A DNA stretch of 64,000 bases, taken from NCBI GenBank assembly GCA_034231615.1, contig CM067314.1, positions 11,539,263-11,603,262 on the forward strand, read 5' to 3'. Numbering within the stretch: position 1 is the stretch's first letter; every line of letters starts with the position of its first letter. This stretch comes from Meghimatium bilineatum. Its lineage: Eukaryota > Mollusca > Gastropoda > Stylommatophora > Philomycidae. Positions 909-62,795 of the stretch are shown here, one piece after another. A program made the position numbers and the translations under genes. The notes under the pieces were generated by a model. It was not told the origin of the DNA. It was given only the letters and a program-made list of their open reading frames with translations, and did not search any database.

Positions 909-997
909 CTGATTGATGATGCTGCTGAGGTTGCAGTGACTGAATGGGATGGCATCTTCACAATCGGAAGCTCTGACACAGCGGTCACCAATCACAC
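909..997 (-). CDS. Internal exon: first half of EB/EGF-like domain 15 (gene continues off the window)
   Basis: An acceptor with a strong polypyrimidine tract (T9 GATCTAG) ends at 998, and a donor GTAGGT starts at 908. The 89-bp exon starts in phase 1 and ends in phase 0. Joined to the previous exon it completes an Arg codon and reads VIGDRCVRASDCEDAIPFSHC, then NLSSIINQ. This is the first three cysteines of another domain with the same IGD.C opening. The second half of the domain must be on a following exon. I see no convincing one in 1-908, so the gene probably continues to the left of the window. Confidence 0.78.
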
Positions 998-2757: not shown

Positions 2758-3179
2758 TCCGTCCTGCCCTGGCATGAAATACAGCTTTTGATAACCACTA
2801 CTCTATCCCGTACACAAAACAATACAACATCTCTATTGCTCGCATTTCATACAGGATCCAAACAGACAAGCATTGCAACATAGACAACAAAAAGAAATCA
2901 CATCACCATCAACAAGTACAAAAACATTAACATGACCCACGACACTAATAATTTCAACAGTTTTGACAACGAAAATAGCAGAAACAACATTAGAAATGGT
3001 CACAATAAAAACAACCACATGAACTAAGATAACGAATTGTACAGCAAAAGAAACATGAGCGACATTAATAAAAGAAGAGAACATACATGAAACAAGAGCA
3101 GCATAAATGAAACAAGGGCAACATAAAATGATCGAGCACAATACAGAAGGAAGAAACACAAAACACAAGGCAAAAGAAA

Positions 3180-3300
3180 AAGACAGTAAAAGGAAGAAAG
3201 ACAATACAAAAGGAAGAAAGACAATACAAAAGGAAGAAAGACAATACAAAAGGAAGAAAACACACAAAAAGAAAGAAAGACAATACAAAAGAGAGAAATA
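3180..3300. repeat. 20-bp purine-rich array
   Basis: Copies of ACAATACAAAAGGAAGAAAG in a region of strong A/G bias on the plus strand. The open reading frames around 2833-3500 come from this compositional bias. Confidence 0.8.
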
Positions 3301-3383
3301 CAACGCACAAGGAAGAAGCACAACACTAAACAAAGAAAATACATCAGAATCTCACATCACGCATTTACTTGCTAACTACTTAC

Positions 3384-3539
3384 GTCTCCTACAAATGTTG
3401 TGCACATCTTCCTTGAATCCAGACTTACAGAAACAAACTTTTCTGCTTGTTAAGCAAACAGCGTTAGGGATGTTACCATTACAATCCTCATCGACCTGAC
3501 ACGGCTCCCGAAGCTTCCTGCCGACACACCTGCTTCCGT
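3384..3539 (-). CDS. Internal exon: end of domain 13 and complete EB/EGF-like domain 14
   Basis: The acceptor CAG ends at 3540 and the donor GTAAGT starts at 3383. The exon is 156 bp, phase 1-1. Joined to the previous exon, the split codon becomes Asp, giving ...GFVSNV-DGSRCVGRK. This provides the missing sixth cysteine of domain 13. A full domain follows: LREPC, then EDC, AVC, CFC and NIC, with the same spacing as those in the large exon. That independent fit strongly supports both splice calls. The exon sits between an A/G-rich array (3180-3300) and a LINE fragment on the other strand. Confidence 0.85.
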
Positions 3540-8005: not shown

Positions 8006-8104
8006 TGAAACAGCACATTTACTAACATTTCCCAATCACCAACCATCATCATTTTCCATACTAAAATAACAATAATAATGACAAGGTATTACTCAAAATA
8101 ACAG

Positions 8105-8785
8105 CGTTTTTAACGAAGGAACAAACACATGCTTACCAACGTTACTTCGAATCCCGGAGGAACAGACACATGCTTACCAACGTTACTGACGAATCCCAAA
8201 GGAACACACACATGCTTACCAACGTTACTGACGAATCCCAAAGGAACACTCACATGCTTACCAACGTTACTGACGAATCCCAAAGGAACACACACATGCT
8301 TACCAACGTTACTGACGAATCCCAAAGGAACACACACATGCTTACCAACGTTACTGACGAATCCCAAAGGAACAAACACATGCTTACCAACGTTACTGAC
8401 GAATCTCAAAGGAACAAACACATGCTTACCAACGTTGCTGACGAATCCCAAAGGAACAAACACATGCTTACCAACGTTGCTGACGAATCCTAAAGGAACA
8501 AACACATGCTTACCAACGTTACTGACGAATCACGGAGGAATAAACACATGCTTACCAACGTTACTGATGAATCCCGGAGGAACAAACACATGCTTACCAA
8601 CGTTACTGACGAATCCCGGAGGAACAAACACATGTTTACCAACGTTGCTGACGAATCCCGGAGGAACAAACACATGCTTACCAACGTTACTGACGAATCC
8701 CGGAGGTACAAACACATGCTTACCAACGTTGCTGACGAATCCCGGAGGAACAAACACATGCTTACCAACGTTGCTGACGAATCCT
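8105..8785 (-). repeat. 42-bp minisatellite made from the exon-intron junction of the EB/EGF gene
   Basis: About 15-16 copies of a 42-bp unit. On the minus strand each copy carries the last codons of the large exon (GFVSNV), the splice donor GTTG|GTAAGC, and about 20 nt of the following intron. The true donor is the first one (8765). Copies of it recur every 42 bp at 8723, 8681, 8639 (there GTAAAC), 8597, 8555 and further left. The unit is 14 codons long and has no stop, so the gene frame stays open to 8530. There a single base change gives TGA (8532-8530), after which the same frame is open again to 8110. Complementary-strand frames are also open, so the long ORFs here are not evidence of coding. 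Confidence 0.93.
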
Positions 8786-10655
8786 TTCTTACAGAGACAT
8801 GTCCGCATTGAACACTCATCTGTAGAGTTCACAATGTCTAAAACTGGCAGTCTATCTATATCCTGATAGCTAGATGCCATGCAACGGAGATTACAAGGAC
8901 TTGTTTCTGATGATTCACTGCATAAACCGCATGTACTGTTTGCAATTACTGAAGAGCAATCTTCATTTGTATTGCACGAATGATCGCCGATACGTCTCAT
9001 GGAACACACCTGTTTTGAAGGTGCAGCAGAATACGGGGCTATTTTTAAATCGTTTCGGGATGTTGAAATAAATCCTAGGAGACATTCACAACGATGAGTT
9101 TTTGTTGAACAATACGAGTTGGGATTTGTTGCGTTACATTCCTCATCAACCGTGCAATCATCATGCAGATGTTTCTCCAGACAATCGTCGTAGTTTTCGT
9201 TGGGTATATAACCAGTATGACAAAAGCACTTATTGCTGCCATCAACTGCGCTGCTACACGAACTGTGAAACACAAAATTAGAACATTGCATATCATTCTC
9301 GCATTTCATTCCTTCAATTATTTTAAAAATACAATACATGTTTCTTATACCAGGAATATATCCGTCACCACATTGACAAATATTATCAACACATTGACTA
9401 TTGTTCACAGAATACTGGCATTCTCCATCGCTTCCACAGGAATCTCCTAAATGTCGAAAAACGCACATGTTTCTTTTCTCGTGGAGGTGATAAAATCGCC
9501 GACACTTACAAAATCCATTATTCATATCGCAGTCTGAATTGTTGAAATCCTCAAGACAGTCTTCTGGGCTCATACACTCCGTCTCTTCTAGAATTTTCTC
9601 GAAACACTGATCAGGTGCTTCATTCGAAGAACTGAACCCCATACCGCACGAGCATACATTGTTTTTACATATAGAGTTGTCAATAAGGCACTCGTTGTGT
9701 GATTTACAAGAATCCCCGATTAGGTTTGACCGGCAAGACGTTGACCCAACTGTTTCATCTTTTTGTAACTTAAACCCTATCCTGCACGAGCATTTTCCTT
9801 TGAGACATTTACTGTTTTCCACATTTTGACAATCCTTATCTTCTTCACATTTATCATTTAAATGAATTTCCTCACAAGTTGTATTGTCTTCGCTTGGTTT
9901 CAGACCTCGTCCAGATTTACAACGACATATCGTATCACTACACACACTTTGATTGATCAGCGCGCAGTCCCTAGCTCTGGCGCATGGATCGCCTAGTTTG
10001 CTTTTCACACACACAGAATCCACGGTGATGTCGACACTCGTAACTTGTCTGTATCCTTTAGCACAGACGCACGTTTTGTTATCACAGACTCTGGCTCCTT
10101 CTCTCACATTTCCACACTCGTTACTTCTTTCACATACATCACCAAGACGACGGCGTCTGCAAGTAAAGTTACCATCTTTGATAAAGTGACTCACGCATGC
10201 GCATTTGTTATCTAAACATCGGGTATTATTCATAACACTAAAGCAGTCATTAAGTTTGGTACAATCATCACCTAACATCCTTGCAACGCAAAGTGATCCT
10301 CTTGCCACATATCCCTCGCCACAGCGGCATGCTGATCTATCACACCTACTGTTCGCTATAGCATTCGAGCAATCATGATCATTCTGGCATCTGTCACCGA
10401 TATTTCTTAAAGCACACTCTTCCATCCCATTCTGTGGGATAAATCCAGACCTGCATTTACAAGTATCGTTGAGGCATTCGCTGTTAGATATTGCGATACA
10501 GTCAGTATCGTTTGAACATTCCTCCCCGATCTTCCGTTGTAGGCAGTCATGTCCGTTGTCTTTGAAGCCAGGATTACAAGAGCAGAGACCATCGTTGCAG
10601 TACGTGTGATTTGTGGATGTGCAGTTGTCAACTGTGCAGGGGGTCAGGCTGGATC
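8766..10655 (-). CDS. Large internal exon: 13 tandem EB/EGF-like domains
   Basis: This 1890-bp exon is open throughout and encodes 630 residues. It holds 13 repeats of about 43-50 residues. Each has six cysteines spaced roughly C-x5-C-x7-9-C-x4-6-C-x-C-x8-14-C, usually introduced by (I/L)GD.C and followed by NS.C and a C.C..G(F/Y) turn. This matches the EB module/EGF-like family of secreted or adhesion proteins; the ligand is unknown. Several N-x-S/T sites are present. The acceptor (TTCTCCAG) ends at 10656 and the donor GTAAGC starts at 8765, so the exon is symmetrical, phase 1-1, as is usual for EGF-type exons. The sixth cysteine of the last domain is missing here and is supplied by the next exon (3539-3384). 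The open frame continues past 8766, but that part is a junction-derived array and probably intronic. Exact symbol and orthologue not recognised. Confidence 0.88.
8786..8790. other. Transition from array to unique coding sequence of the large exon
   Basis: To the right of about 8785 the minus-strand sequence is unique coding sequence (CSMRTCLCKKGFVSN). This marks where the tandem copies stop. Confidence 0.6.
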
Positions 10656-10732
10656 CTGGAGAATAAATAGATTTCATGGAATTTATAGCTGTTCTCAGAA
10701 TAATTGGGAGAATAATTGTGCTAATGAAAGTA

Positions 10733-10962
10733 GATGTGATGGAAAGTAGATGATGTGAGTGACAGTAGATGATGTGAGTGAAAGTTGATGTGAGTGAAAG
10801 TAGATGTGAGTGAAAGTAGATGGAGTGACAGTAGATGATTTGAGTGAAAGTAGATGTGAGTGACAGTAGATGATGTGAGTGACAGTAGATGTGAGTGAAA
10901 GTAGATGCGAGTGAAAGTAGATGTGAGTGAAAGTAGATGTGAGTGAAAGTAGATGCTCAGTA
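10733..10962. repeat. About 16-18 bp minisatellite upstream of the large exon
   Basis: Units of GTGAGTGAAAGTAGAT and variants. It lies in the intron, about 80 bp from the acceptor of the large exon. Its right end abuts a reverse transcriptase fragment. Confidence 0.88.
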
Positions 10963-14230: not shown

Positions 14231-14349
14231 TGTGTGGCATGTTCCATTGTGGATATTACTAACTTATAAACACAGTATATAGTACTCATATATAAATCTA
14301 AACTAAACAGTACACATTACAAACAGTTATTTGATCAGACAGTTATTTA

Positions 14350-15150
14350 AACAACATTAGATATGCAGATAACACTGTTCTTTTAGCAGAAAGTGAACAT
14401 GAACTACAAAGACTAATAGATCAAGTCAATAAATCAAGTAATGAATATGGACTGGATATAAACATTCAAAAAACAAAAACCATGATAAATAGCAAAGACA
14501 CAGAAGAACAGGAGGTAAACATAAACATACAGGGAGAGAAACTACAACAAGTAAAACAGTATCAATATCTTGGACACATAGTCACAAATGATGGCAGATG
14601 TGAAACAGAAGTTAAAAGGAGAATAGGAATGGCTAAAAGTACCTTCAATGACATGAGGAAATTATTAATATCTAAACAAATTACAAACAAGTTAAAAATG
14701 AGAATTATAAAATGCTACATCTATTCCATATTAATGTATGGCTCAGAAACATGGACACTAAATAAACAATTAGAAGACAAAATTGATGCCTTTGAGATGT
14801 GGGTATATAGAAGAATAGGGAGAACATCATGGAAAGAGAAGAAAACAAATAAAGAGGTGCTAAAAACACTTAATATGAAGAAAGAACTACTAAGAGAAAT
14901 AAAGATCAGGCAAATAAAATACTTTGGACACATTAAAAGACATGACACCCTATTGAAGACCTTACTTGAGGGTAAAGTCAAAGGGAAGCGAGCAAGAGGT
15001 AGGCAGAGATACAAGTGGGAGAGTAACATTACACGATGGACAGGTTACAGTCTAGCAGAGTGCACCACCAAGACAAGAGACATGAGATGTTGGAGATACG
15101 TTGCAGCCAACCTTCGTTGCGGAGACGGCACTTGATGATGATGATTTGAT
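14350..15150 (+). pseudogene. LINE RT C-terminal half with intact long frame
   Basis: The frame runs from IRYADNTVLLAE (14356; an altered YADD box) without a stop to 15135. It contains FQYLGHI-type, ILMYGSETWTL, EMWVYRRIGRTSW and KYFGHIKRHDTLL motifs and ends at AANLRCGDGT and a stop. A (TGA)n tail follows (15133-15148). The element is 5'-truncated. The long undamaged frame suggests a recent insertion compared with other LINEs here. YADN instead of YADD would abolish polymerase activity. Confidence 0.88.
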
Positions 15151-38164: not shown

Positions 38165-38745
38165 GAATGTAAGACTATGTTAAAAGCAGAATATAAGAAA
38201 AACTGGAAGCAGATGCACCCAACTGCAAAACCAAATGACCCCTACCATCAAATGTCAAGCGAGGAACAAATCATCATCTGCAGACTACGAACTAGGGACC
38301 AAAACGAAATAAAAGGAATGACGAAAACGGATGTGCTGGACATCGAACGTCCAGACCACCGAGTGGCGAGCCGAGGTGCAAATAACACATTTCTACTGTG
38401 GAACATGCAGAACAAAGTACTTCACGCTCCCCGGCGGAAATCACACGAAATATTCGTCGTGGTTATATGAGAGCGAATGCTGAAGAAGAAGAAGACTACG
38501 AACTGGTCACAACAGACTGAGAAGTCACATGTTCCGAAAGCTAAAGATTGGCGAGACAGACCTGTGCAACTGTGGACTGAGCCCAGAGACTGCTGAACAC
38601 ATTCAACATGCCTGTCAACTCTACGCAGAAGAGAGGGAGAAAATATGGCTTACTGAGACGGAACTGCTTCCAGACATGAGGGGTTCCATTGATGACCTGA
38701 AGCGAATCACACAATTCATTGAAGCTATTGGCTCTGTAACCTGAT
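38165..38745 (+). pseudogene. RNase H LINE (family G-like) C-terminal fragment
   Basis: EYKKNWKQMHPTAKPNDPYH ... EEQIIICRLRT is split by a SINE insertion (38294-38492). It resumes with NRLRSH-type text, then GETDLCNCGLSPETAEHIQH (cysteine motif) and a conserved end TQFIEAIGSVT and stop at 38744. Confidence 0.85.
38294..38492 (+). mobile_element. GAA-tailed SINE (diverged family A relative) inserted in the LINE
   Basis: Flanked by perfect 12-bp duplications AGACTACGAACT (38282-38293 and 38493-38504). It keeps AACGGATGTG and the tail GAGCGAATGCTGAAGAAG of family A, but its centre differs. Confidence 0.88.
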
Positions 38746-40010
38746 ATCTGACTGAAGCTATTGGCGCTGTAACCTGATATCTAACTGAAGCTATTGGTGC
38801 TATAACCTGATATCTGACTGAAGCTATTGGTGCTGTAACCTGTTATCTGACTGAAGCTATTGGTGCTGTGACCTGATATCTGACAGAAGCTATTGGTGCT
38901 GTGACCTGATATCTGACTGAAGCTATTGGTGCTGTGACCTGATATCTGACTGAAGCTATTGGTGCTGTAACCTGATATCTGACTGAAGCTATTGGTGCTG
39001 TAACCTGATATCTGACTGAAGCTATTGGTGCTGTAACCTGATATCCGACTGAAGCTATTGGTGATGTAACCTGATATCTGACTGAAGCTATTGGTGCTGT
39101 AACCTGATATCTGACTGAAGCTATTGGTGCTGTAACCTGATATCTGACTGAAGCTATTGGTGCTGTAACCTGATATCTGACTGAAGCTATTGGTGCTGTA
39201 ACCTGATATCTGACTGAAGCTATTGGTGCTGTAACCTGATATCTGACTGAAGCTATTGGTGCTGTAACCTGATATCTGACTGAAGCTATTGGTGCTGTAA
39301 TCTGATATCTGACTGAAGCTATTGGTGCTGTAATCTGATATCTGAATGAAGCTATTGGTGCTGTAACCTGATATCTGACTGAAGCTATTGGTGCTGTAAC
39401 CTGATATCTGACTGAAGCTATTGGTGCTGTAACCTGATATCTGACTGAAGCTATTGGTCCTGTAACCTGATATCTGACTGAAGCTATTGGTGATGTAACC
39501 TGATATCTGACTGAAGCTATTGGTGCTGTAACCTTTATATCTGACTGAAGCTATTGGTGCTGTAACCTGATATCTGACTGAAGCTATTGATGCTGTAACC
39601 TGATATCTGACTGAAGCTATTGGTGCTGTAACCTGATATCTGACTGAAGCTATTGGTGCTGTAACCTGATATCTGACTGAAGCTATTGGTGCTGTAACCT
39701 TTATATCTGACTGAAGCTATTGGTGCTGTAACCTGATATCTGACTGAAGCTATTGGTGCTGTAACCTGATATCTGACTGAAGCTATTGGTGCTGTAACCT
39801 GATATCTGACTGAAGCTATTGGTGCTGTAACCTGATATCTGACTGAAGCTATTGGTGCGGTAACCTGATATCTGACTGAAGCTATTGGTGCTGTAACCTG
39901 ATATCTGAAGCTATTGGTGCTGTAACCTGATATCTGACTGAAGCTATTGGTGCTGTAACCTGATATCTGACTGAAGCTATTGGTACTGTAACCTGATATC
40001 TGACTGAAGA
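38719..40010 (+). repeat. 33-bp minisatellite grown from the LINE stop region
   Basis: About 39 units of GAAGCTATTGGTGCTGTAAC plus CTGATATCTGACT. The first unit is the last codons and stop of the LINE above (IEAIGSVT*). The array ends in GAACGATGAAGAAGAAGAGG, the LINE's GAA tail. So the array sits between the stop codon and the tail. Confidence 0.95.
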
Positions 40011-44950: not shown

Positions 44951-46255
44951 TTTTATACCCTGAGTTATACCCCTTTATGCCTTGCAGTGTCAGGGGTAGA
45001 AGATTTCTCTGGACATAACCCTTTTGTGTGCCGCATAAACGTTTGTTTTCGTTGATTCCTTTATTTCTGTGATTCATCTTTTGCATGGTCTGCCCCTGGT
45101 CTTGTATCCTTCGTGTTTGTATAGCAATTATTTTTGAGGTGCACTATCTGATGGTAGTCTGGAAGTGTATGAGAACCACTTGATCTGATTTCTTCTGATG
45201 TAATCCATGAATGACATTGTGTTTGTTAGTCTTTCTGCTGTTTTCATTTCTGATTCTGTCTCTTATTGTTACTTCGAGAATTCTACGTAGACAAGTCATT
45301 TCTCCTGTAACAAGTTTTCTTTTTTCTTTTGTTTAAGTGTCCACCTTTGACGTTTGTAGCATTGTGATGGTACGATGATCGTTTTATATAATGCAGTTTT
45401 GGTGTTCATGCTCACATAATTGTTTTCGGAAACTAGGAGACATCTGCCCCAAGATTTGGTATGCTATGTTGCATCTATGTTGGATTTCTTTGGTGTTTTC
45501 CCCATTCGATGACATGACGCTTCCAAGATAAGTGAATTCTTTCACATTTTTAAAGTGATCATCTATTAGAATAGTGATGTTTCTTTCTATTTTTGATATT
45601 AATATTACATCTATTTTTGCTATTAATATTACATCTATTTTTGATATTAATATTACATCTATTTTTGATATTAATATTACATCTATTTTTGATATTAATA
45701 TTACATCTATTTTTGATATTAATATTACATCTATTTTTTTCTGTGTTTATCTTCATGTTAAAGTCCCTACATGTTGTGTACAGTCTATTTATATGCTGTT
45801 GTTGTTGTTGTCCTTTTCATTTTAATATTATTTCTTGATCGTCTGCAAAAAGAAGTTCGCTCAAGAGGTTGTTTAGGTTGTCTCCTTCGTCGGTGTTGGC
45901 AATTTGACATATACAATCGATATATGTTATGAATAACAAGTGAGATTTTGTTTAAACATCCTTGTCGCACTCCAGAGTGTAAGTGAAATTTATCTGAAAG
46001 CCATACGCTCGTTCTAATTCCACATTGACTGCATGTGTAACTACTCCTGCACAAGTTGATTAGGTATTGTGGAATCCCATATTTCGATAGTATTTTCCAC
46101 AATTCCTGTCTGTCTACTCTGTCGAAGACTTTTGCTTGGTCGATATACACTTATGTTGTTGTTTTCAATTGGTTTTTTCTGCCAATTTAATGGCATCTTT
46201 CCAGCTCTTATTCTTACGGATAGTGCTTACGTAGAACACATGTTTGAGAACTTTC
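44951..46255 (-). pseudogene. LINE family J reverse transcriptase, minus strand
   Basis: Minus-strand order: IRKNKSWKDAIKLAEK, DQAKVFDRVDRQELWKIL and HSGVRQGCL (46255-45960). Then KMKINTE and an array, KNVKEFTYLGSVMSSNGE (about 45560-45500) and the C-terminal text shared with 12750-13720, ending near 44960. Frameshifts and stops throughout. Confidence 0.82.
45585..45745 (-). repeat. 24-bp array grown inside RT codons
   Basis: Six to seven units of TTTTTGATATTAATATTACA plus TCTA. On the minus strand each is eight codons, KNRCNINI, at the position between the KTEVM-like and YLG motifs of family J. The frame is preserved. Confidence 0.9.
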
Positions 46256-48850: not shown

Positions 48851-49280
48851 GATCACAAACACATATAAATCAAAAACAACAAGTAGGGACGACACAACTT
48901 GCGTTCACATGTAGTAAGTTGGTCGAAGTGATAGAAATGAGTTCAAAGGTGACACAAACAGGAAATTAACAGAAATAGGAAGTATAAAAAAACAAAGTTG
49001 AATACATGTTTTAAAAAAACCGAGAGATGACGGAACAACCCGATATTATACATATGTCAAGCGCTCATTCATACCCAAGGGTTTCAGAGTGCCGAATTCA
49101 TATGTATAGCGGTTCTCATGCGCCAGACGGGTTCGGTCATCGGAGAAGCCTGCTTTGATGGCCGTCACCTGAATATCCTGGGCGCCCTGATGGCCTGTGC
49201 TGTTGAAATGAACATCCACAGGATAGCCCGAATGGTGTTTAATACTGTGTAGGTGCTCGCAGAAACGGTCAGCAAGCCAA

Positions 49281-50150
49281 CCTTCCCATTCTCCAGTCTG
49301 ATCCGGAGACACGGGAAGTGTTCTGTGGCCTCCCTGGTTGCGTACAAACGGGACAAGAACCTCATGGATTTATTTGTTCGGAGTCATCTCAGGCCTGACG
49401 TCCCCCCCCCTTCATTCTGGTACTATCAGCTGCAGCGCCCTAGATGCTACACCTGTCCGTATGTTACCCAGACCCGGTCCGTCACATTCCCCAAGGCCAC
49501 CTTCTCCATTGTGGAAAGTTTATCTTGTGTGTCCCGTAAAGTCATCTATGCGATCATCTGCAAGCGCTGCACCATGACATACATAGGTGAGACTGGTAGG
49601 AGGCTTGCTGACCGTTTCTGCGAGCACCTACACAGTATCAGACACCATTCGGGCTATCCTGTGGATGTTCATTTCAACAGCACAGGCCATCGGGGCGCCC
49701 AGGATATTCAGGTGACGGCCATCAAAGCATGCTTCTCCGACGACCGAACCCGTCTGGCGCTTGAGAACCGCTATATATATATATGAATTCGGCACTCTGA
49801 TGCCCTTGGGTAACCTTGGGAATGAGCGCTTGACATATGTATAATATCAGGTTGTTCCGTCATCTCTCGGTTTTTTTAAAAACATGTATTCAGCTTTGTT
49901 TTTGTATACTTTCTATTTCTGTTAATTTCCTGTTTGTGTCACCCTTGAACTCATTTCTATCACTTCGACCAACTTACTAGACATGTGAACGTAAGTTGTG
50001 TCGTCCCTGCTTGTTGTCTTTTATTTATATGTATTTGTGATCCTTGATAAAGGCCTTTCGGTCGAAACGTCGATTTGTGTGTGTGCCTATGTGTGTTTCA
50101 TACAATTAGCAAAACTTTGTTACCTTGTTTCAAGCTTTACCTTATGAAGA
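49281..50150 (+). pseudogene. Penelope-like element, right arm with GIY-YIG endonuclease
   Basis: The frame 49285-49786 reads RRHGKCSVASLVAYKRDKNL, RPRCYTCPYVTQTRS, RKVIYAIICKRCTMTYIGET and GRRLADRFCEHLHSIRHHSG. The endonuclease core is complete: CPY motif, YIGETG, R, and STGH. It is truncated before the reverse transcriptase. The tail runs to about 50150 and carries the motif at 50042-50072. The segment after about 49598 is repeated in reverse in the left arm. Confidence 0.9.
50042..50072 (+). ncRNA. Hammerhead-like Penelope motif, best stem
   Basis: CTTGATAAAGGCC TTTC GGTCGAAACG: GGCC and GGTC can pair as a stem II (one G-U) closed by TTTC, with the GAAAC box directly after. Confidence 0.5.
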
Positions 50151-61117: not shown

Positions 61118-62795
61118 CCAGTGTGATAACCAGGGCCTGGACGTCTAGTTCAGCCAGTGTGATAACCAGGGCCCGGACCTCTAGTTAAGCCAGTGTGATA
61201 ACCAGGGCCTGGACGTCTAGTTCAGCCAGTGTGATAACCAGGTCCTGGACTTCTAGTTCAGCCAGTGTAATAACCAGGACCTGGACTTCTAGTTCAGCCA
61301 GTGTGGTAACCAGGGCCTGGACTTCTAGTTCATCCAGTGTGGTAACCAGGGCCTGGACTTCTAGTTCAGCCAGTGTGATAACCAGGGCCTGGACGTCTAG
61401 TTCAGCCAGTGTGGTAACCAGGGCCCGGACTTCTAGTTCAGCCAGTGTGATAACCAGGGCCTGGACGTCTAGTTCAGCCAGTGTGGTAACCAGGGCCCGG
61501 ACTTCTAGTTTAGCCAGTGTGGTAACCAGGGCCTGGACTTCTAGTTCAGCCAGTGTGGTAACCAGGGCCTGGACTTCTAGTTCAGCCAGTGTGATAACCA
61601 GGGCCCGGACGTCTAGTTCAGCCAGTGTGATAACCAGGGCCCGGACGTCTAGTTCAGCCAGTGTGGTAACCAGGGCCCGGACTTCTAGTTCAGTCAGTGT
61701 GATAACCAGGGCCTGGACTTCTAGTTCAGCCAGTGTGGTAACCAGGGCCTGGACTTCTAGTTTAGCCAGTGTGATAACCAGGGCCTGGTCTTCTAGTTCA
61801 GCCAGTGTGATATGCCCAGGGCATGGACGTCTAGATCAGCAAGTGTGGTAACCAGGGCCCGGACTTCTAGTTCAGCCAGTGTGATAACCAGGGCCTGGAC
61901 GTCTAGTTCAGCCAGTGTGGTAACCAGGGCCCGGACTTCTAGTTTAGCCAGTGTGGTAACCAGGGCCTGGACTTCTAGTTCAGCCAGTGTGGTAACCAGG
62001 GCCTGGACTTCTAGTTTAGCCAGTGTAGTAACCAGGGCCTGGACTTCTAGTTCAGCCAGTGTGGTAACCAGGGCCTGGACTTCTTGTTCAGCCAGTGTGG
62101 TAACCAGGACCTGGACTTCTAGTTTAGCCAGTGTAGTAACCAGGTCCCGGACTTCTAGTTCAGCCAGTGTGATAACCAGGGCCTGGACTTCTAGTTCAGC
62201 CAGTGTGGTAACCAGGGCCTGGACTTCTAGTTTAGCCAGTGTGATAACCAGGGCCTGGTCTTCTAGTTCAGCCAGTGTGATATGCCCAGGGCATGGACGT
62301 CTAGATCAGCAAGTGTGGTAACCAGGGCCCGGACTTCTAGTTCAGCCAGTGTGATAACCAGGGCCTGGACGTCTAGTTCAGCCAGTGTGGTAACCAGGGC
62401 CCGGACTTCTAGTTTAGCCAGTGTGGTAACCAGGGCCTGGACTTCTAGTTCAGCCAGTGTGGTAACCAGGGCCTGGACTTCTAGTTTAGCCAGTGTAGTA
62501 ACCAGGGCCTGGACTTCTAGTTCAGCCAGTGTGGTAACCAGGGCCTGGACTTCTTGTTCAGCCAGTGTGGTAACCAGGACCTGGACTTCTAGTTTAGCCA
62601 GTGTAGTAACCAGGTCCCGGACTTCTAGTTCAGCCAGTGTGGTAACCAGGGCCTGGACTTCTAGTTCAGCCAGTGTGGTAACCAAGGCCTGGACTTCTAG
62701 TTTAGCCAGTGTAGTAACCAGGGCCTGGACTTCTAGTTTAGCCAGTGTAGTAACCAGGGCCTGGACTTCTAGTTTAGCCAGTGTAGTATGGGTGT
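61118..62795. repeat. 36-bp minisatellite, about 46 units, with a 470-bp higher-order duplication
   Basis: The unit is GCCAGTGTGGTAACCAGGGC plus CTGGACTTCTAGTTCA. A marked variant with ATATGCCCAGGGCATGGACG is present at 61810 and again at 62280. The 470 bp that follows each is nearly the same, unit variant by unit variant. The 12-codon periodic frames on both strands are products of the array. Confidence 0.96.

Follow-up and report, generated by a model that had tools for sequence, protein, structure and literature searches.

How does a gene choose its splice donor when the same donor has been copied many times in tandem, and does it gain anything from the copies? This question is raised by a 64,000-nucleotide (nt) window of the genome of Meghimatium bilineatum (CM067314.1, assembly GCA_034231615.1), in which the end of a large exon encoding EB modules is repeated, together with the donor that follows it, as a 42-bp minisatellite of 16 units. 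Tandem repeats of exon-intron boundaries were named "mirages" in work on amphioxus (PMC3087553, PMC3902484; these papers, and PMC2812944 below, are cited from excerpts). We give a probability of about 0.8 to the reading that the present array is a mirage, namely, a near-neutral tandem amplification across the donor of the EB gene in which the first donor is mostly chosen, and the repeats are most probably by-products that the genome tolerates, not a device. The elements of the array, by position in the window, are as follows:

8116..8784, minus strand: the minisatellite of 16 units of 42 bp (the mirage), from the repeat search, the donor listing and the core-match test
8760..8765, minus strand: donor 1, GTAAGC, the presumed true donor, which completes an EB module with an 8-residue loop
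8550..8723, minus strand: donors 2 to 6 (GT at 8723, 8681, 8639, 8597 and 8555), in phase and ahead of the stop
8530..8532, minus strand: TGA, the sole in-frame stop of copies 1 to 15
8131..8513, minus strand: donors 7 to 16 (GT at 8513 through 8177, and 8136), behind the stop, the last one base off phase

A tandem repeat search of the window returned the array from 8784 to 8116 on the minus strand, with a period of 42, 16.0 copies and 95% matches. Each unit joins the last 19 bp of the exon (GGATTCGTCAGCAACGTTG or a variant) to the first 23 bp of the intron (GTAAGCATGTGTTTGTTCCTCCG or a variant), donor included, and a script scan found 16 GTTG/GTAA sites, with the donor GT at 8765, 8723, 8681, 8639, 8597, 8555, 8513, 8471, 8429, 8387, 8345, 8303, 8261, 8219, 8177 and 8136. 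The first 15 are spaced by exactly 42 nt and share one phase, and the last follows after a step of 41 nt and is thus out of phase by one base. GT is kept in all 16 units and GTAAGC in 15, the copy at 8639 reading GTAAAC with the loss of G at position +5; the first copy is undiverged, and the last is both diverged and one base short. A preliminary description of this DNA had proposed that an exon-intron junction had been amplified into near-equal donors of one phase, with six of them (8765 to 8555) before the only stop, TGA at 8532-8530. The amplification and the six donors ahead of the stop are borne out, and so is the common phase for 15 of the 16 donors. Use of donors 1 to 6 would add 0 to 5 copies of GKHVFVPPGFVSNV, 14 residues per step, with the sixth ending in GFISNV.

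A 16-fold repetition goes well past what chance would give, whereas its phase and openness do not. In the window, a 21-base core of the unit has 15 matches when as many as three mismatches are tolerated, always inside the array, and it has none in 100 shuffles. When the array was searched against the one assembly used (1.61 Gb in 32 contigs) by a method that skips very common words, a single place was found, the window itself. There was no exact match to the unit in the viral contig collection and no match in Rfam at gathering scores.

Three features agree with what defines a mirage. A minisatellite-like unit is repeated in tandem across an exon-intron boundary that is backed by the joined frame of the gene, the splice signal is copied within the units, and the presumed authentic exon part lies at the array edge, where the 1890-nt exon runs on into unit 1, which completes an EB module. 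Mirages may also have homogenised inner units and diverged units at the edges; here, divergence is seen in the last unit and not in the first. The units also hold an acceptor-like pyrimidine stretch and a CAG 8 nt before the donor, which score about as well as the three acceptors scored for the EB gene with matrices of approximate frequencies rather than a trained model. Such units could, in principle, serve as tiny exons; splicing within the array, from a donor of phase 1 to an acceptor of phase 2, would break the frame. A further acceptor-like site lies directly past the array, at 8062 (score 3.1).

To decide where the exon ends, a gene model is needed, of which the window holds three exons:

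8766..10655, minus strand: large EB-module exon, 1890 nt, phase 1 at both ends (Pfam EB, E 1.6e-48; boundaries and joined frame)
3384..3539, minus strand: next exon, 156 nt, phase 1 at both ends, an EB module with a Pfam score slightly below the curated cut-off
909..997, minus strand: following exon, 89 nt, the start of an EB module; the gene continues past the window

The EB exons were located with a model built from the modules of the large exon itself, which led to the exons at 3539-3384 and 997-909 and to three more in the fetched flank beyond the window; the last of the three lies some 42 kb further on and was placed from its frame and a weak match (E 0.017). Joined at canonical sites by way of donor 1, the six exons give 3021 nt, or 1006 codons, with no stop. 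The large exon and its join to 3539, which the preliminary description had also drawn, have fitting phases and are well supported at the level of sequence. A donor-like site at 9009 (CAG/GTGTGT), stronger by the same kind of approximate matrices, was set aside, as its phase of 0 is unfit for the exon at 3539. Relatives of the EB protein were sought in the genome contig collection, where seven stretches matched the pattern and none passed tblastn, and in the viral contig collection, where no stretch matched the pattern; a search of the PDB gave no match at E 0.001. Against its own genome, the protein had three matches, one of them to itself and the other two, which overlap, to a downstream exon of its own gene.

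Within this model, the donors can be compared by the protein that each would yield. The EB loop, which separates the C.C..GF motif from the following cysteine, was measured in 20 modules, including the one at the junction, and is 6 to 21 residues long. Donor 1 gives the junction module a loop of 8 residues, the commonest length, shared by 9 of the 19 other modules, whereas donor 2 would give 22 residues, donor 3 would give 36 and every further donor would add 14 more. Likewise, the junction module scores 19.8 bits with donor 1 and 13.5 to 15.0 bits with the 15 other donors. Because its loop length and module score fit best, donor 1 is probably both the ancestral and the main donor. Since EB modules vary at this loop, one extra unit could be tolerated there.

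The class to which the array probably belongs is a known one, although the preliminary description had stated that there was no named class for such arrays. In amphioxus, mirages have been described in Adh3, the globin genes BflGb6 and BflGb9, TnC and PGBD5, the last added by PMC3902484. According to the excerpts of both papers, they do not disturb splicing, and, in that of PMC3902484, the Adh and TnC mirages generate no aberrant mRNAs. The EB array has the class of repeat in common with these cases, those reported not to disturb splicing, but it differs in its host, a mollusc; in its copy number, 16 here and 100 in a kinase gene described below, against the 6 and 3 units given for BflGb6 haplotypes in the excerpt of PMC3087553; and in its 42-bp unit, which keeps the phase. 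Minisatellites able to change splicing also lie at the boundaries of human segmentally duplicated genes with variable internal tandem repeats (excerpt of PMC2812944). Those are recent paralogues with units of 30 bp on average, repeated four times, and with transcript evidence. The Rogers model of intron gain by tandem duplication of AG/GT, as cited in the excerpt of PMC3087553, likewise takes duplicated splice signals as raw material, but no new intron is evident here, and the copies sit in an existing one. No molluscan mirage was found in the open-licence literature, searched by titles and abstract starts and mostly without mollusc-specific terms. As far as searched, the EB array is probably a mirage of the known class in a phylum new for mirages, and the presence of several mirages in one mollusc is also new, as are natural arrays in which the choice of one donor out of many near-equal ones could be tested.

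The further mirages come from a kinase-domain search of the same genome, which gave 135 matches, of which 70 loci were examined: the 30 best-scoring ones and 40 others chosen for having no internal stop. Several of these are paralogues, so the 70 are not independent, and their exon ends were inferred from homology and GT. Arrays lie in or at most 60 nt from the kinase match at 12 of the 70 loci, and three are donor mirages:

L017:2145-3639 with the adjoining L045, about contig C13:18748204-18751522: mirage in a CaM-kinase-like gene
L080:706-1216 with L086: mirage in a GRK2/3-like gene, units of about 33/40 bp
L081:686-801: mirage in a paralogous GRK2/3-like gene, units of 25 bp

The read sequences of L016, L042, L062, L064 and L079 and of the 3′ side of L060 contain arrays that look purely intronic, while the judgement on L066, L069 and L070, and on L060 and L080 at their 5′ sides, was made from coordinates only, and acceptor-side mirages may exist there. 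All four mirages identified, the EB array among them, are donor-side, acceptor sides having been only partly checked. One of the intronic arrays, L042:1812-1950, lies just past the kinase exon and repeats TTTTTACAG, an acceptor-like sequence.

The largest of the kinase mirages is that of L017, where the exon ends in GATGAG/GTAAAC and gives way to units, mostly of 30 or 34 bp, in which exon end and donor recur. Together with L045, it offers 100 donors over 3.3 kb, 34 of them in phase with the first, which is included in the count; read in frame, a stop is first met after donor 2 and before donor 3. Its kinase domain has CaM kinase 1 as the nearest PDB match, and the gene may be PSKH1. In L016, its paralogue, the exon ends in a similar way and the donor is also GTAAAC, but the exon end is not repeated, and there is a separate intronic array. 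The paralogous exons of L080 and L081 end in ...YRDLK/GTATGT and are called GRK2/3-like by the PDB match of L080 and the near-identical protein of L081. L080 has 30 donors, 9 in phase, and L081 has 4, 2 in phase, in each case counting the first; in L081, a stop follows soon after donor 1. The RDLK motif is conserved in kinases, and added residues there should be harmful. Because most later donors would shift the frame and the rest would insert residues, the first donor is likely to be dominant in the kinase mirages and probably carries most of the splicing in L080 and L081. The mirages of these two genes directly follow RDLK and have different units; shared ancestry and parallel origin are both possible. 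Among the four mirages, the EB array is the only wholly phased one, its last copy excepted.

Such arrays arise in a genome in which tandem repeats are abundant. In the window, arrays with a period of at least 10 occupy 55 loci and 31% of the sequence, and in the fetched flanks they cover 4 to 49% per locus. The two neighbours of the mirage in the EB gene lie outside it:

10725..10955, strand unassigned: 16-bp minisatellite, 70 nt upstream of the acceptor of the large exon
3137..3343, strand unassigned: minisatellite, 41 nt past the end of the 156-nt exon at 3384

Within the EB gene, only 19 of 3021 exonic bases lie in arrays, as does a single one of its 12 exon ends. The period is a multiple of three in 16 of the 36 long arrays of the window, the EB array counted in, and a consensus donor that is equally strong by the approximate splice matrices occurs on either strand in 2 of the 36. 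A random intronic part leaves the frame open in 72% of trials. Because such periods are common and openness arises so often by chance, roughly a quarter to a third of arrays like this one should have a unit that is both in phase and open. Large arrays elsewhere in the window include one of 46 copies of 36 bp at 61118-62788 and one of 39 copies of 33 bp at 38720-40009.

The most probable course of events can then be outlined. A 42-bp segment straddling the donor would have been duplicated in tandem and expanded in a minisatellite-rich genome, perhaps by slippage or unequal exchange. In our gene model, new copies would fall between the original donor and the acceptor, that is, inside the intron. 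The splicing machinery would commit mostly to 8765, which adjoins the real exon and is transcribed first, and this choice has indirect support in the kinase mirages and the amphioxus reports. The later copies would leave with the intron, and the near-neutral array would drift under little constraint, with which the substitution pattern is consistent. Leaky use of donors 2 to 6 may add 14 residues per step to the variable loop.

Several observations weigh against this reading. Classical work on duplicated donors is said to have found that the intron-proximal one can be favoured. Unlike the kinase arrays, the EB array keeps its phase in 15 of 16 donors and has an open frame through five extra units; even among the kinases, L080 has a frame open past all nine in-phase donors, and donor 2 of L017 is in phase and open. 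Mirage sites could also act as cryptic sites, as noted in the excerpt of PMC3087553. In humans, a transcript retaining the repeat also exists for 66% of the intron modifications made by boundary repeats (excerpt of PMC2812944), and neutrality is therefore not to be assumed.

Two functions had been envisaged in the preliminary description, length isoforms and a donor decoy, and neither finds evidence in the sequence. In the former, regulated or leaky use of donors 1 to 6 would insert 0 to 5 copies of the 14-residue unit into the EB loop, which we consider improbable. A phase held over 15 donors, five open extra units and insertion into a loop that varies and naturally reaches 21 residues in one module would suit such isoforms, as would the human boundary tandem repeats that can generate alternative splicing (excerpt of PMC2812944). 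Periods divisible by three, however, are common in the window, and an open frame is likely by chance; donors 3 to 6 would give loops of 36 to 78 residues, outside the 20 modules measured; donor 1 gives the commonest loop and the best module score; and, in the three kinase mirages, the phase is mostly lost. Nor are the substitutions biased toward third codon positions, with 4 of 13 states there in copies 1 to 15, the diverged 16th having been dropped before counting; in the same copies, substitutions are not significantly fewer in the nine donor columns (P = 0.20), both counts being of low power. Less probable still is that the array is a decoy or a switch for nonsense-mediated decay, in which some transcripts would be spliced at donors 7 to 16 and so include the TGA at 8532, lowering output, with copy number setting the dose. 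Ten donors with nearly the same local sequence do lie behind the stop, and the units carry a CAG scoring like the acceptors of the EB gene, but, with 13 substitution states spread over 15 copies, GT would escape all of them with a chance of 0.53, leaving no sign of selection, and as many as 100 such donors are present in one kinase gene. The idea that RNA structure conceals the later donors was rejected, as the whole array folds no more strongly than 20 shuffles (z 0.05) and short pieces range from z -0.59 to 0.78. The least probable alternative is that the repeat itself or its length is an assembly error, as happened to an amphioxus mirage misassembled in a draft (excerpt of PMC3087553); against this, the copies carry distinct, ordered variants, arrays are abundant, and the mirage pattern recurs at three other loci.

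Because the data from its own genome favour a tolerated by-product, the in-frame ladder is probably luck, and a function for it is unproven and unlikely. A broader view that we regard as doubtful, yet less so than these alternatives, is that the lineage keeps gaining minisatellites at splice junctions and that those at 5′ splice sites survive, as the first transcribed donor would commit before its copies exist in RNA, while copies upstream of an acceptor would compete with it. The EB array would then be a rare phased member in which donors 2 to 6, if leaky, would let copy number tune the loop length.

Further observations concern the genome more generally. The haemocyanin beta-sandwich family, a mark of molluscs, has 50 matches in the assembly, on two contigs, and none in 14 controls, which are prokaryotes as far as they are named and therefore do not tell animal phyla apart. 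In the kinase and haemocyanin listings, matches of similar score recur on the contig pairs C7/C12, C11/C13, C15/C22, C18/C19 and C20/C6, which hints at an old whole-genome duplication. The window also contains reverse transcriptase (RVT_1) and GIY-YIG matches at 14335-15135, 45785-46150 and 49253-49786, the second (RVT_1) under the curated cut-off, which are probably retroelement remains.

The choice among near-identical competing donors is an old question in splicing, and this genome offers natural arrays of 4, 16, 30 and 100 such donors in recognisable genes, one of them with a repeat-free paralogue. They also carry a warning for annotation, as gene finders may set the donor anywhere in such an array. 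Finally, these loci suggest that minisatellites, as well as transposons, can reshape the ends of exons.
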